From: Candidatus Saccharimonadota bacterium
GTDB lineage: Bacteria > Patescibacteriota > Saccharimonadia > Saccharimonadales > UBA4665
Reading direction: 5' to 3'
DNA: 64,000 nucleotides
NCBI GenBank assembly: GCA_029288485.1
Contig: JARIHC010000006.1
Location: 62,001-126,000, forward strand
Shown: positions 28,590 through 33,730 of the stretch, in pieces
How the letters are laid out: each line of letters begins with the position of its first letter
Position numbering within the stretch: the first letter of the stretch is position 1
Made by a program: the position numbers and the translations under genes
The notes under the pieces: model-generated
The model's input: only the letters and a program-made list of their open reading frames with translations
What the model was told of the DNA's origin: nothing
Database searches by the model: none

Positions 28590-28982
28590 TTAAAGCGCAA
28601 GTTTTTTAGCCATTTGGGCCAGAGCATCATGGTCAGGCTCTGATTCTAGATCTTGGGGCGCCTTAAACTCACTGGAATCGTTAAAGGGTATTAATTGTAC
28701 ATGAGCGTGCGGTACATCTACGCCGACAATTCGTTCACCTACATACTTAGTACCAAGGGTTTCGCGCAGACGCTTGGCTAGCTTCAAGGTAGTTGCCATC
28801 ACCGCCTGGTAGTCTTCTAAGGGTAAGTCCCAGACAAATTCTATCTGTTTTTTGGGGATAATTAGGGTGTGGCCGGGTTGTACGGGGTGAATATCCAAAA
28901 AGGCCAGGGTCAGATCATCTTCGTATAATTTATGGCAAGGAATTTCGCCTTTAATAATTTGAGTGAAAATGGTGTCGGCCAT
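28590..28982 (-). CDS. HIT-family nucleotide-binding hydrolase
   Basis: A 130-residue protein of the HIT superfamily, hydrolysing or transferring nucleotidyl groups. Marks: an FTQIIKGEIPC-type start, AFLDIHPVQPGHTLIIPK, and the active-site motif PHAHVQLIP with His92, His94 and Gln96 in the third position (as in galactose-1-phosphate uridylyltransferase and several bacterial HIT proteins). The ATG at 28982 matches the family start better than the upstream frame; a TATACA/TACAAT box lies shortly upstream. Confidence 0.92.
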   Translation of the reverse strand: MADTIFTQIIKGEIPCHKLYEDDLTLAFLDIHPVQPGHTLIIPKKQIEFVWDLPLEDYQAVMATTLKLAKRLRETLGTKYVGERIVGVDVPHAHVQLIPFNDSSEFKAPQDLESEPDHDALAQMAKKLAL

Positions 28983-29037
28983 GGGATTTATTGTATACCA
29001 TCTGCGGCCTAGCTCAGATACGGACTCTTGCAATATA

Positions 29038-29092
29038 TACTAAAACATGCTATTATTACTCGGCTTGTTTCTTTGGGAAGTATATTTTAGTA
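29038..29092 (+). repeat. Inverted repeats in the 170-base leader region of the TPM/LemA-like operon
   Basis: TACTAAAA (29038-29045) pairs with TTTTAGTA (29085-29092), and CTCGG near 29060 pairs with CCGAG at 29093-29097. A GAGG ribosome site precedes the start at 29156. The region 28983-29155 otherwise holds only the HIT promoter and AT-rich DNA. Confidence 0.45.
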
Positions 29093-29155
29093 CCGAGGTT
29101 ATAAGGGCTCGTTAATTTTTTAGAGCTAAATCGCAACTATAAGCGAGGTTAGAGC

Positions 29156-30604
29156 ATGCTCACGATTGTGTGCATCCTGATCTCTCTCGCTATATTCGGC
29201 GTCATTGCCTTTTTTGGCAACCGTGCGAAGGTGAGAGATTTCTACGGGAAGCTGCGGAGCATCACGCTGCACGAGTTCATTGCCGGCGCAATCGTGATCG
29301 GCATTGCAGCGTTTCTGGCTACCGTGGTTGTGGGACCCGGCCTGGCGCGTGAAAGTGCCATCGGCGGTTACCACGAGTTTTGGAACGGCTCGGTTACGGA
29401 ACCGGTCGTCCAGGTCGACGAATGTCACCGTGATGGTTCGTGCGAGCACACCTACAGGTGTGATCACGAAGAAGTCTGGCACACCACCTACAACAGCAAA
29501 GGCGAAGCGAGCGGCGGCTACTGGGAAGATATCTATCACCAGTGCCCGTACGCCACGCGCGAGCTGAAGTACGTGCTGGAAACCAACATCGGCAAGTCGT
29601 TCACGATTGCTGACGGTTACTTCGAAGCCCATCCAGAGGAATGGAGGAGTGGAGAAGGTTTGCCAAGCGTCAGTGAAGTGCCGCGTGAACCGCCTGAACG
29701 GTGGATCAAGGCCAAGACTGACCTGGAAAACGGTCTTTCGGATCCGGTAACTAAAGTTGCCGAATACGAAAACTTCATCCTGGCCAGCGATAGCGAACTG
29801 TACACCGAATACGAAGGAGGCATTGAAGAGTACCAGAAAGCCGGCCTGTTGCCCAAGACCACGGCTCATCTGGACGAAGACAACATGCTGTTCGATTACG
29901 ACATGCAGGCGCAGAAGGTCCAGGCAGTAGGCGGACTTAAGCTTGCCAATATTGGCGAGTGGCAAAACCGCTTGATGCGCCTAAATGCAGCACTCGGCGT
30001 TGACTTTCAGGGTGACATTCACATCGTTCTGGTGCCCGCTGACAAGATCAGCAATCCGGACGAATACATCACCGCTCTGAAGGCCTACTGGACGAGTTTG
30101 GGCAAGTGGAGTATTTCCAAGAACGGCATCATCCTGGCTATCGGAGTGAGTCCCGACGGCAAAACCGTCGAATGGTCTCGCGCTGAAACTGGGATGCCCG
30201 TGGGTAACGAGCAGATGCTCGCCGCCCTGAAGTTCGACCTGTCGGGTGAATCGTTCGATCCGGACGTCTTGCTCGGCAATGTCTCAGCCAGCATCCACAA
30301 AAAAGGCAGCGAATCCGAAATCGTTTACGACAAGGCCGGAGGCGGCTTGGTGGGCAACATCGTGTTTACCAAGTTCCCGTTTGCGCGGGCTTGCATGAAG
30401 TGCGAGGACGAAGGCGATAACGGCGCTGGCTACGTCGATCTTCGAGATCAGGTTCCGATTACCACCGGAGCAAAGATTGAGATGATCATCGTTGTTGCAG
30501 TCATAACGCTGGTGCTCGGCGCGCTGTTTTATTTCCTGGATCCGTTCGGGAAATTGTTTGGTTCGTCGGACGAAGAAGAAAAAACCAACCGTTACACGTA
30601 CTAG
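29156..30604 (+). CDS. TPM-like membrane protein with Cys-rich extracytoplasmic domain
   Basis: A 482-residue protein with two N-terminal hydrophobic helices (about 1-18 and 41-61), a large outer part and a C-terminal helix (about 439-462). Residues 80-125 hold a Cys/His cluster (DECHRDGSCEHTYRCDHEE). Residues about 270-370 resemble the TPM fold (DIHIVLVPADK, then NGIILAIGVS), as in YgcG-like proteins that pair with LemA. Codons are GC-rich with many CTG, AAG and ATC, unlike neighbouring genes. The LemA-like gene follows 36 bases later. Role unknown; the TPM/LemA pairing supports an envelope function. Confidence 0.7.
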   Translation: MLTIVCILISLAIFGVIAFFGNRAKVRDFYGKLRSITLHEFIAGAIVIGIAAFLATVVVGPGLARESAIGGYHEFWNGSVTEPVVQVDECHRDGSCEHTYRCDHEEVWHTTYNSKGEASGGYWEDIYHQCPYATRELKYVLETNIGKSFTIADGYFEAHPEEWRSGEGLPSVSEVPREPPERWIKAKTDLENGLSDPVTKVAEYENFILASDSELYTEYEGGIEEYQKAGLLPKTTAHLDEDNMLFDYDMQAQKVQAVGGLKLANIGEWQNRLMRLNAALGVDFQGDIHIVLVPADKISNPDEYITALKAYWTSLGKWSISKNGIILAIGVSPDGKTVEWSRAETGMPVGNEQMLAALKFDLSGESFDPDVLLGNVSASIHKKGSESEIVYDKAGGGLVGNIVFTKFPFARACMKCEDEGDNGAGYVDLRDQVPITTGAKIEMIIVVAVITLVLGALFYFLDPFGKLFGSSDEEEKTNRYTY

Positions 30605-30640
30605 AAGTGCCTATCCGTTAACTCCGACCATAGGAGAAGC

Positions 30641-31324
30641 ATGCAAGAGAAAGGCAGTTCCAAACCCTGGTACCAAAGGCCCGGGCCGTTGGCTGGGGTG
30701 GGCATCGCTATTTTGGTGGTGCTTTTCGCGGTTTTCCTTTTCTCGAAGCACGAAAGCATCGTGAGCGAAGGCAACAAGAAGCAGCAGGGCCTGATCGTTT
30801 TCTGGAACGAAACGACTAACGTCCTGAGCGGCTGCATCATCGAAACGAAGGAAGCAGCCGGCATTGCGGAAGCGCAGACGGGGGCCATTAACAAGGTCAT
30901 CTCGGAAGCGGTTCGCGGTCGCTACGAAGAGCCATCCACGGCGCAGCCTGGCGGAGGAAAGAACTCCCTGTTCAGCGCCATGGTCGAGGCTTATCCGAAT
31001 ACGGATCAGCTCTCGAAAACGTTCCAGGACGTACTGACGGTGGTCACCGGATGCCGGACGAAATTCCAGCACACCCAGGCCGAACTCCAAAAGCACGTCA
31101 CCATGTTCAACGAATGGCGGGAAGGTTCATTCCTGAACCGAAAGCTCGGCGCGGAAAATTACCCCACCGACAAGCTCGTCATCGAAGTTGGCAAAAAGAA
31201 GGTCAGCGGTCAAGCTGCGCTCGACAAGATGCGCCAGCTCGTGGTCATCAAAGAAGCAAATACTGGCCGCGAAACCGGTGAAATCGAAGCGGTCAATCCG
31301 TTCGGAGAAAAATCCGCCGAATAG
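30641..31324 (+). CDS. LemA-like membrane protein
   Basis: A 227-residue protein with one N-terminal helix (about 17-37), then a long helical outer domain. LFSAMVEAYPNTDQLSKTFQDVL and KHVTMFNEWREGSFLNRKLG follow the LemA pattern in which an EAYP motif precedes the last long helices. Two Cys (in SGCII and TGCRT) are unusual for the family. GC-rich codons as in the preceding gene, with an AGGAG site before the ATG. The two genes form a pair that probably arrived together. Function of LemA proteins is unsettled. Confidence 0.72.
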   Translation: MQEKGSSKPWYQRPGPLAGVGIAILVVLFAVFLFSKHESIVSEGNKKQQGLIVFWNETTNVLSGCIIETKEAAGIAEAQTGAINKVISEAVRGRYEEPSTAQPGGGKNSLFSAMVEAYPNTDQLSKTFQDVLTVVTGCRTKFQHTQAELQKHVTMFNEWREGSFLNRKLGAENYPTDKLVIEVGKKKVSGQAALDKMRQLVVIKEANTGRETGEIEAVNPFGEKSAE

Positions 31325-31360
31325 CGGTTTAGCTAGGAGAACTATACGAATCTAACAGCC

Positions 31361-31396
31361 GAGACCCTAGGTCTCTAAATCCTCTCAACCGAGAGG
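31361..31396 (+). repeat. Two short hairpins at the head of the 340-base 3' region
   Basis: GAGACC (31361-31366) pairs with GGTCTC (31370-31375) across CTA, and CCTCTC (31381-31386) with GAGAGG (31391-31396) across AACC. Further downstream GGGCG near 31399 can pair with CGCCC near 31441. The gene-free stretch 31325-31664 is thus mainly a structured 3' region ending in a terminator and a ribozyme. Confidence 0.6.
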
Positions 31397-31510
31397 TGGG
31401 CGAGGGATCGTCATCTGAGCCATGTGTTCATTTGGATTCCCCGCCCGGCAGCCGGATTAACTTGTAGAGTCCCTTCCAGGATTCCTTGCAATATCCATGT
31501 CTGCCAGCGA

Positions 31511-31562
31511 GGTAGAATCACTTTGTAGCAGCCTAACGGCTCCAAATGATTCCTACCTTTTT
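31511..31562 (+). terminator. Long terminator hairpin behind the LemA-like gene
   Basis: GGTAG-AATCA (31511-31520) pairs with TGATT-CTACC (31548-31557, one bulged C), continued inside by TTTG/CAAA and AGCC/GGCT around TAAC. Five T residues (31558-31562) follow. The hammerhead ribozyme begins two bases later. Confidence 0.82.
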
Positions 31563-31563
31563 C

Positions 31564-31614
31564 GCACTCCACGAATGCGTATTCGTGCTGATGAGTCCAA
31601 AAGGACGAAAGTGC
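31564..31614 (+). ncRNA. Type III hammerhead self-cleaving ribozyme
   Basis: All conserved parts are present in order. Stem III is GCACT (31564-31568) with AGTGC (31610-31614). The cleavage residue is C31569. Stem I is a closed hairpin, CACGAAT (31570-31576) with ATTCGTG (31581-31587) and loop GCGT. The core CTGATGA is at 31588-31594. Stem II is GTCC (31595-31598) with GGAC (31603-31606) and loop AAAA. The core GAAA is at 31607-31610. The open end is stem III, which defines type III. Cleavage is predicted after C31569. It lies just behind the terminator of the foreign-looking TPM/LemA-like pair. Confidence 0.9.
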
Positions 31615-31629
31615 ACCAGTGTTAGAAGA

Positions 31630-31658
31630 TTGACTTATAGCGATATTAATGCTACTAT
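31630..31658 (+). promoter_or_regulatory. Promoter of the DUF4097-like gene
   Basis: TTGACT (31630-31635), 17 bases ending TGC, TACTAT (31653-31658). The ATG at 31665 lies six bases later, so the transcript is predicted to start at or next to its start codon, and the ribozyme lies outside it. Confidence 0.75.
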
Positions 31659-31664
31659 TATCTT

Positions 31665-32450
31665 ATGTCTGAAAAGCCGCAAGATGTACAAACTGTAGAC
31701 CTTCCAGGTCTTAAATCCAGTGAGATTGATCTTATGTCCGCCGATGTTCGTATCGGCCAAGCTGAATCTGGTACGGAGCATCCTCAGCTTCTCCTAGAAG
31801 GTGGCTCTGATGCTTTTAAACACTCTTTTAATGACGGGCACTTAACCGTGCAAGAAGGAGGCGAGAGCGATATTACTATAGACGGCGACAGCACTGTAGT
31901 TATCAGCGGAGTCGACAAAAGCCGAATCAATATTCAAGGCGGCCGTATTAGAGCGGGCGGAGTAGTCATTGGCTCTAATATCAGCAGTCGGGGCAGTGTC
32001 CAAATCGGTAATGTCCAGGTAAGTTCAGGCAAAGACGGCACTAGAGTAGTTTTAGGCGGCGATATAAACGAATCAGCTCGCCAACGAGCTACATTGCTGT
32101 TGCCCGAAGGCCACATGGCGAGCCATAACATTTCTACTCAATCCGGCGACATAGATCTAGAAAATCTAACAGCCCGTATATTAAAAATCGCTACGCAGTC
32201 AGGAGATCTAGCTCTGCAAAGCGTAGGCGTTGAAAGTATCTCTGCAGAGACTCAGGGGGGCGATGTCGACATGGAAGGCGTCAAGTCATCTTCGACCGTC
32301 AAAGCCAAAACTATGGCAGGCAACGTAACTTTACGAGACAGCTCAGCTCCTGCATGGAATCTAGAGACTATGAGCGGCAACATACGAGCGAAGAGCGTGG
32401 AAGGTGAACTAGACACTTCTACCATGTCCGGCCGCACCCGAGTCTCGTAA
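31665..32450 (+). CDS. DUF4097-like beta-strand repeat protein (putative adhesin fold)
   Basis: A 261-residue protein. The second half is a repeating beta pattern with S-G-D/G-D-V steps (STQSGDIDLENL, TQSGDLALQSV, TQGGDVDMEGV, TMAGNVTLRD, TMSGNIRAKSV), which is the DUF4097 right-handed beta-helix type. There is no signal peptide or membrane helix, so it is probably cytoplasmic or exported by an unusual route. Such proteins often accompany envelope-stress or membrane-organising systems. It starts without leader after the ribozyme. Confidence 0.82.
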   Translation: MSEKPQDVQTVDLPGLKSSEIDLMSADVRIGQAESGTEHPQLLLEGGSDAFKHSFNDGHLTVQEGGESDITIDGDSTVVISGVDKSRINIQGGRIRAGGVVIGSNISSRGSVQIGNVQVSSGKDGTRVVLGGDINESARQRATLLLPEGHMASHNISTQSGDIDLENLTARILKIATQSGDLALQSVGVESISAETQGGDVDMEGVKSSSTVKAKTMAGNVTLRDSSAPAWNLETMSGNIRAKSVEGELDTSTMSGRTRVS

Positions 32451-32581
32451 CAACCTGAGTAATTAAATTTTCTTAGTTGGGGGATTATTAAATTTGTGCG
32501 CAGCTTCCGGCGTTGAGGCATGTAATAATTTAGCCGAAAAATAATTACAAAAAAGCTAGAGTGTGCTTTACAATAATCATC

Positions 32582-33730
32582 ATGCGAAAGTTTGGCGTGG
32601 TTATTTTTTCTCTTATTTTGTTCGTCAGCCTGTTGGCATTAGCCTTTTCCACTAGCACCAACTCGGCTCTTACTAATCCCAGAAAAATTGAAACATGGTT
32701 AGGGCAGAGCGGCTTTTACGACAGCTTTGTCGATACTGCCATCAACCAGGCCAACAAGACCGCCGGCAACGACCAAGACGGCGGCGTTTCGCTGAGCGAC
32801 GCAGCCGTAAAGCAGGCCGCGGAGTCAACTTTTTCTTCTCAATTGATTCAGAAAAACACTCGCGTATTTTTAGACAGTAACTACGCCTGGCTTCGGGGGA
32901 AAACCGATAAACCGGCTTTTACGATTGATTTAACAAGCGCTAAAGCCAGCTTTGCCCAGAAAGTAGGCAAATATGTTACGACTTACTTATCTACTTTGCC
33001 AGCTTGCACTCCAAGTCAAACCGCCCAGATTAACCTTTCGAGCATTGATCCGCTAACACTGCAGTGCCGACCCACCGGCTTGGACCCCAAGACAGAAGGC
33101 GCTCTGGTCACAGAACAGATTGAGTCTAACGGAAACTTTCTGAGCAATCCCGTAATTACTGCTAAGACTTTTAACACACAAGGTGAAACTGACGCCACGC
33201 CTTATTACCAAAAGCTTGCTTCTGCACCCAAAATGTACCAGACCGCCGTTAAAGTTCCTTGGATAGCCGGCATACTTACAATTCTCAGCAGTATAGGCGT
33301 ACTGTTTCTAGCCGTACGAAAGCGTAAAGGCTTTAAGGTTATAGGTGTTTTACTAGCAATATCCGGTTTAACACTAGTGTTAACCAGGCTTGTTTCGGAC
33401 CAGATCTTTAAGGCTGTGGAAGGAAATATCTTTAACCAAGCTTCTGTCGGATCACTCCAGAAATCGCTAACCGGATTTTTGCACCACGTTGAAAGCCAGA
33501 TAGTTAAAGTCGATTTTTGGTTTGGTATTGCATACTTGCTGCTGGCGCTAGTAATTTTAGCTTTGTTGATCGGCACGCGGCAGCGAGGTCTGAGAATGCC
33601 AAAGCCTCTGCAAAACCTTACCCCGTCGGATACTGGACCACTGCCAGCCGCAAGCGCACAGCCATCTAATGATAAGCCATCCACAAGGCCAAAACCGCGG
33701 CCGTCAAAACCGCGCCGCTTAGTTCAGTAG
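32582..33730 (+). CDS. Membrane protein with large outer domain, unknown function
   Basis: A 382-residue protein. An N-terminal signal-anchor (about 3-24) is followed by an outer domain of about 190 residues with two Cys (ACTPS, LQCRP; a possible disulfide), then three helices (about 223-245, 250-270, 308-330) and a Pro-rich basic tail. ATG 32582 is chosen because a TACAAT box lies a few bases before it. No known family recognised. It stands between the DUF4097-like gene and the convergent leuB. Confidence 0.7.
   Translation: MRKFGVVIFSLILFVSLLALAFSTSTNSALTNPRKIETWLGQSGFYDSFVDTAINQANKTAGNDQDGGVSLSDAAVKQAAESTFSSQLIQKNTRVFLDSNYAWLRGKTDKPAFTIDLTSAKASFAQKVGKYVTTYLSTLPACTPSQTAQINLSSIDPLTLQCRPTGLDPKTEGALVTEQIESNGNFLSNPVITAKTFNTQGETDATPYYQKLASAPKMYQTAVKVPWIAGILTILSSIGVLFLAVRKRKGFKVIGVLLAISGLTLVLTRLVSDQIFKAVEGNIFNQASVGSLQKSLTGFLHHVESQIVKVDFWFGIAYLLLALVILALLIGTRQRGLRMPKPLQNLTPSDTGPLPAASAQPSNDKPSTRPKPRPSKPRRLVQ

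Follow-up and report, generated by a model that had tools for sequence, protein, structure and literature searches.

What does a self-cleaving RNA do when it lies directly behind two genes that look foreign to their genome? The question is raised by a 64,000-nucleotide stretch of DNA (the window) from a Candidatus Saccharimonadota genome of 912,562 bases (0.91 Mb; G000), in which a first, sequence-only reading had pointed to a hammerhead ribozyme. To our knowledge, bacterial hammerheads have been known for about fifteen years without a settled function. Perreault et al. 2011 (PMC3088659) describe examples such as the three around ardA in Agrobacterium, and the portions of that paper and of PMC10085705 considered here treat the roles of bacterial hammerheads as unproven or unknown. 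Hammerheads and twisters are also enriched near Mu-like phage genes, for a reason that the same portion of PMC10085705 gives as unknown.

The site (Table 1) reads GCACUC CACGAAU GCGU AUUCGUG CUGAUGA GUCC AAAA GGAC GAAA GUGC on the forward strand. Stem III is open, stems I and II are closed and their order is III-I-II, which makes it a type III hammerhead, and the invariant core is in place (CUGANGA, GAAA and UH before the cut, here UC at 31568-31569). Energy minimisation of the 71-nt stretch around the site yields this three-stem hammerhead as well. The complete type III hammerhead of the sequence-only reading is confirmed: every element it named is present in the order it gave, and its coordinates, U31568 and C31569 included, are correct. 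From these features we infer that the RNA is active as a ribozyme.

Table 1. Features in and around the hammerhead locus (window coordinates).
Feature	Position	Strand	Basis or remark
Left native neighbour, HIT-family protein	28590..29033	-	adjoins right neighbour in at least 16 relatives
Upstream gene 1, 482-aa membrane-anchored protein	29156..30604	+	ORF; GC 0.55
Upstream gene 2, 227-aa protein, N-terminal transmembrane stretch	30641..31324	+	ORF; GC 0.56
Structured 3' UTR, gene 2 to ribozyme	31325..31563	+	fold; alignment with second site in this genome
Stem-loop directly 5' of ribozyme, GGTAGAATCA/TGATTCCTACC	31511..31557	+	fold; followed by T5 at 31558-31562
Type III hammerhead ribozyme	31564..31614	+	predicted cleavage 3' of C31569
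Stem III	31564-31568 with 31610-31614	+	includes U31568-A31610
Cleavage residue (predicted)	C31569	+	
Stem I	31570-31576 with 31581-31587	+	loop GCGU
Core CUGAUGA	31588-31594	+	
Stem II	31595-31598 with 31603-31606	+	loop AAAA
GAAA	31607-31610	+	
Promoter-like site of next gene, TTGACT-17-TACTAT	31630..31658	+	consensus scan, 9/12; a match only, function not implied
Downstream gene, DUF4097 toastrack protein	31665..32450	+	Pfam PF13349, E 1.2e-18; GC 0.49
Right native neighbour, 381-aa membrane protein	32585..33730	+	adjoins HIT gene in at least 16 relatives

The site shares with the Rfam type III family RF00008 its permutation, core nucleotides and three stems, but its stem III is short (4 bp plus U-A), loop 1 is GNGU-like and loop 2 is AAAA. 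In the covariance search that had been proposed as a check, RF00008 does match the site (29.0 bits, E 3.4e-4 in 501 bases), but the score stays under the gathering score of 48.5, which is a database threshold and no structural feature. For this reason the hammerhead is missing from standard annotation, and a default Rfam scan of the window returned tRNAs only. The same holds for all CPR hammerhead sites scored with RF00008, which fall under the threshold although their structure is complete. A covariance model of 41 relatives (R1) gives the window site 73 bits (E 1.8e-19 per genome), partly by construction because the window sequence is among the 41 training sequences.

The sequence-only reading had missed that the site is one of a large family. 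Within this genome, the pattern CTGATGAGTCC-N3-8-GGACGAAA, representing the stem II core, has four matches (the reversed control pattern has zero), the RF00008 search ranks six convincing sites and R1 finds seven hammerheads. RF00008 at E<=1 has matches in 20 of 60 relatives, with 14 in one of them, and R1 at E<=0.01 has at least one match in 49 of 380 genomes drawn evenly from the phylum. A pattern scan of GTDB genomes recovered at least 117 stretches with the core, a sample biased by the fixed AAAA loop and stem II since the scan fixed only CUGAUGA, stem II, AAAA and GAAA. The named records among the matches listed are nearly all Saccharibacteria and other Patescibacteria/CPR (Kaiser-, Nomura-, Falkow-, Shapiro-, Woese-, Berkelbacteria and others), and the confinement of the architecture to CPR rests on these record titles among the matches listed together with Rfam controls. 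Two of the few non-CPR titles among them are a Polynucleobacter MAG (L054) and Smithella (L114), for which bin contamination is possible.

Stems I and III, on which the pattern imposes no bias, are in place together with UH in 142 of the 155 distinct core matches listed (viral contigs included), compared with 22 of 155 when left and right flanks are mixed. In an alignment of 41 sequences, 97% of pair cells are paired, two-sided changes occur at 13 of 15 pairs and the core is invariant; these sequences had been pre-filtered for pairing, so the flank-mixing count is the fair test. The stems of the relatives thus covary as those of type III hammerheads do. GNGU predominates in loop 1 and AAAA in loop 2, the latter biased by the query. 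A structure finder applied to 363 kb of locus sequence returned dozens of sites, and zero after shuffling. Conservation of the core in related genomes, on which the sequence-only reading had staked its claim, is strongly present.

These hammerheads occupy a recurring position: one or more accessory genes come first, then a strong stem, the hammerhead and the next gene. At 145 of 168 CPR sites the upstream gene shares the strand of the ribozyme (p 8e-23; median gap 93 nt), and it is GC-richer than the downstream gene at 116 of 145 (0.534 and 0.475, p 6e-16), both p values being optimistic because sites in related genomes are not independent, and some gene starts being wrong because ORFs were called by a longest-ORF heuristic. 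Control pairs of neighbouring genes in the same loci are evenly split (472 of 953). High GC as a sign of high expression was considered and rejected, because ribosomal protein genes beside one unit have a GC of 0.43-0.44 and the unit at least 0.53. The 103 upstream proteins (alignment A3) mostly belong to no known family: at least 79 have no Pfam match. Only 14 Pfam families are matched, on which a gene-specific partner for the hammerhead is rejected. Recognised proteins include NUDIX, SPFH, MoxR, vWA, response regulators and TelA. Two hammerhead-tailed genes encode relatives of the Thoeris inhibitor Tad4, and some resemble CRISPR-associated proteins (weak Csx3/Csx16-like matches, and Unk_01).

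Some units form arrays, with six hammerhead sites in 12 kb (G001) or five in 3.2 kb (G187). In the latter, a hammerhead is followed by a short spacer, in some units by a repeated leader with AAAGGAGGTGA, and then by gene, stem and a further hammerhead. Across the phylum, then, hammerheads stand directly behind acquired-looking accessory genes and, judging from this arrangement, probably cut the end of each message. As in the sites described in PMC3088659, they are chromosomal, near accessory or phage-like genes and sometimes several in a row; the part of that paper considered here does not mention TM7 and does not describe a fixed position 3' of foreign genes, a GC bias or leader pairing. They also resemble the Mu-like phage hammerheads and twisters, as far as the considered part of PMC10085705 describes them, in occurring with mobile genes and close to other ribozymes, but their partner genes are diverse accessory genes. 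Literature searches for hammerheads or other ribozymes in Saccharibacteria, Patescibacteria, Parcubacteria or the candidate phyla radiation returned no paper; subscription papers and preprints lay outside their scope, and a prior description is possible.

The two genes upstream of the window ribozyme fit this pattern. Their GC content exceeds that of the flanking genes (0.45-0.49) and the segment is missing at the same place in relatives, which upholds their foreign character. The names TPM (gene 1) and LemA (gene 2), given to them earlier, find no confirmation in Pfam: gene 1 has no Pfam family above cut-off, and the LemA likeness of the gene 2 product is by eye only. Pfam scans of the neighbouring genes detected no phage structural genes around the site. 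In at least 16 relatives the HIT and 381-aa genes are divergent neighbours with 36-311 nt between them; in the window the distance is 3.5 kb and takes in the gene pair, the hammerhead and DUF4097. None of the gene 1, gene 2 and DUF4097 proteins was found at this locus in nine relatives inspected. Five other relatives (L271-L275) carry different, mostly larger genes there, and the interval (window 29034-32584) is an insertion hotspot. Of these relatives, the one closest by HIT identity (70%; G011) carries another hammerhead-tailed gene in the same block, between valS and an HTH-HAD gene; its product is a putative secreted protein and its GC is ~0.60.

Among 393 genomes of the class, a gene 1 homologue was detected in one other genome (G546), where it is followed by a gene 2 homologue (31% identical), a long stem and a hammerhead. 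G546 is of another family, and the pair sits there at another place, between the side of a dnaX-like gene and ribosomal genes such as rplL and rplJ.

Other loci record gain and exchange. A site that is uninterrupted in one genome (G155) is occupied in its congener G113 by ~0.87 kb comprising a leader, a 94-aa gene and a hammerhead. The segment lies within the 3' end of a conserved gene, ends 3 nt past the ribozyme and is flanked on both sides by the last ~30 bp of that gene; a simple 5-bp target duplication is rejected, since the flanks are two copies of the gene end. The interrupted gene is matched in 21 genomes of the family, and in the 20 others no hammerhead lies within ~1.5 kb of it. At one locus shared by G095, G274, G342 and G155, the leader and hammerhead are kept and the gene between them encodes 204, 338, 211 and 191 aa, respectively; some of these are diverged relatives, and the 338-aa protein appears to be unrelated.

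Within one genus, the rfb operons of G356 and G751 hold hammerhead-tailed NUDIX-like genes (GC 0.67), and the rfbC promoter resumes ~15 nt after the hammerhead. The NUDIX gene of G474, 82% identical to its G356 counterpart, ends in an ordinary GC hairpin instead, and G556, whose RfbC is 99% identical to that of G356, has another NUDIX-like gene in reverse. The rfbB-rfbC intergenic region (L362-L366) is itself a hotspot, taking different GC-rich NUDIX-like genes in both orientations in related species. The hammerhead standing in place of a terminator favours a role in 3'-end formation. Gene and ribozyme are separable: SPFH homologues in three other genomes have no ribozyme nearby, so the SPFH gene is independent of it and an inseparable pair is rejected.

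The segment just before the ribozyme has pairing partners of its own, scored here by ungapped complementarity. It pairs well with the 3' UTR in 28% of sites (0.7% in shuffles) and, at a score of at least 26, with the 5' leader of the gene in 25 of 134 sites (~19%; shuffles 0, other windows of the same loci 1.8%). Leader pairing involves the last 10-16 nt before the ribozyme and always ends 1-5 nt before stem III, and its pairs change together between sites (TGACAAGCAAGGATAG/CTATCCTTGCTTGTCA, GACAAGCAGATGAAT/ATTCATCTGCTTGTC, TAGCGTGTGGTGA/TCACCACACGCTA). At several sites the segment is able to pair with both leader and 3' UTR. Pairing may therefore bring the two ends of the mature RNA together next to the cut; alternatively, the segment may change from one partner to the other. 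In the window, the partner is the 3' UTR; the site shows no strong leader pairing and is not among the leader-pairing matches. At L076, L207, L209, L145 and other Saccharibacteria sites, the segment can pair with leader or 3' UTR and similar sequences form direct repeats around the gene, possibly a switch or a recombination site.

We consider it fairly probable that the hammerhead is a portable 3' end and that, in the window, an active type III ribozyme ends an acquired two-gene unit. Going by position and sequence, 3'-end formation of accessory-gene mRNAs is the most likely function, and trimming of the upstream transcript, already suggested by the sequence-only reading, is the likeliest role of the predicted ribozyme. 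RNA polymerase would run through both genes, their structured 3' UTR and the ribozyme, and the RNA would cut itself after C31569. Hammerhead cleavage leaves 2',3'-cyclic-phosphate ends; the mRNA would end in such a phosphate 12 nt past the strong stem, separated from the following sequence, and the stem and blocked end would slow 3' exonucleases. RtcB is missing from 38 CPR genomes, so cyclic-phosphate ends may persist in those cells. The cut would also uncouple the two-gene unit from the next gene. The same stem-plus-hammerhead would serve many unrelated Patescibacteria accessory genes where other genes have ordinary terminators, and in tandem arrays the hammerheads would cut the joint transcript into one-gene pieces. 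Leader pairing would hold both mRNA ends together at about a fifth of sites, and the window site would use its local 3' UTR stem. Counting against this account, T5 follows the window stem, and some transcripts may stop before the ribozyme.

If this is true, an RNA enzyme would be a general mRNA 3'-end device in bacteria. Its sequence would also mark recently acquired genes, some of them related to phage-defence proteins, in bacteria that are difficult to culture. The hammerheads form a large set with one architecture in one phylum, some genomes having a dozen, and natural comparisons (the same gene with hammerhead or ordinary terminator, filled and empty sites) make the function testable.

The units may also be mobile, with the hammerhead as 3' boundary, leader-pairing inverted repeats and a ribozyme that takes part in both mRNA end formation and movement or cargo exchange; this double role is possible, though doubtful. 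That the hammerhead instead belongs to the mobility of the units appears unlikely, whether transcripts are trimmed to unit length, made circular, copied into DNA and inserted, as for retrozymes or viroids, or the stem and hammerhead act as a recombination site like integron attC. The units are cassette-like in their arrays, foreign GC and the gain in G113, the ribozyme marks where the variable segment ends (3 nt away in G113, ~15 nt in G356), and the gene stands between inverted repeats made up of the leader and pre-ribozyme segments. However, most sites have a single ribozyme, and the G113 flanks show no clear target duplication. Viroid, satellite RNA and retrozyme hammerheads produce unit-length RNA and would be similar in this respect, but the CPR hammerheads are encoded in DNA beside bacterial promoters, usually one per unit, and the RtcB ligase was detected in 0 of 38 CPR genomes (a control found it in 9 of 14), on which RtcB-based RNA circles are rejected. 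Integron cassettes likewise consist of single accessory genes in same-strand arrays with a folded repeat after each, whereas here the repeat consists of a ribozyme whose catalytic core is invariant and no integron integrase (TIGR02249) scored above cut-off in the 38 genomes, which gave Xer-like matches only; identity with integrons is rejected. Literature matches for hammerheads and integron cassettes concerned other subjects, judged by title.

The preferred reading, a cleaved 3' end, must also be weighed against termination ahead of the ribozyme. Folding of the 31325-31569 segment gives -86.1 kcal/mol (z -4.37), a value matched by 0 of 200 shuffles. A second hammerhead site of this genome (G000:C8, L193), lying behind an unrelated SPFH gene, has a 3' UTR that aligns with this segment. 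A structured 3' UTR of ~230 nt (window 31325-31557; L193 9862-10101) is thus common to two unrelated hammerhead-tailed genes, and it matched no Rfam family. The sequence-only reading had put the ribozyme two bases after the T-run of a strong terminator, so that only read-through RNA would contain it. Only one base (C31563) separates them, and the terminator itself fares poorly: the stem followed by T5 is there, yet TTTTT precedes the ribozyme at just 7 of 205 CPR hammerhead sites (3%), and L193 keeps the stem with CTTCC in place of T5. The window stem is also unlisted by a terminator scan, though its loop exceeds the limit of that scan. It is quite unlikely, then, that most transcription stops at 31562 and that the hammerhead acts on read-through RNA only.

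Regulation of the downstream gene (DUF4097 in the window), through cleavage of its 5' leader or release from read-through, seems distinctly improbable. The next gene is on the same strand at 113 of 168 sites, often after a short gap, but it is on the other strand at the remaining 55, the association with the upstream gene is stronger, and in the window the ribozyme and the next gene have a promoter-like site between them. That the hammerhead is an inactive remnant of an old insertion, to which the presence of hammerheads in a minority of genomes might point, is extremely improbable given the invariant core and the stems covarying across the phylum.

The same hammerhead core also occurs in 34 viral contig stretches from IMG/VR (L157-L190), often several times per contig. 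These hammerheads often lie 20-40 nt after genes, many of them amidoligase-like by eye, and often follow a palindromic hairpin.
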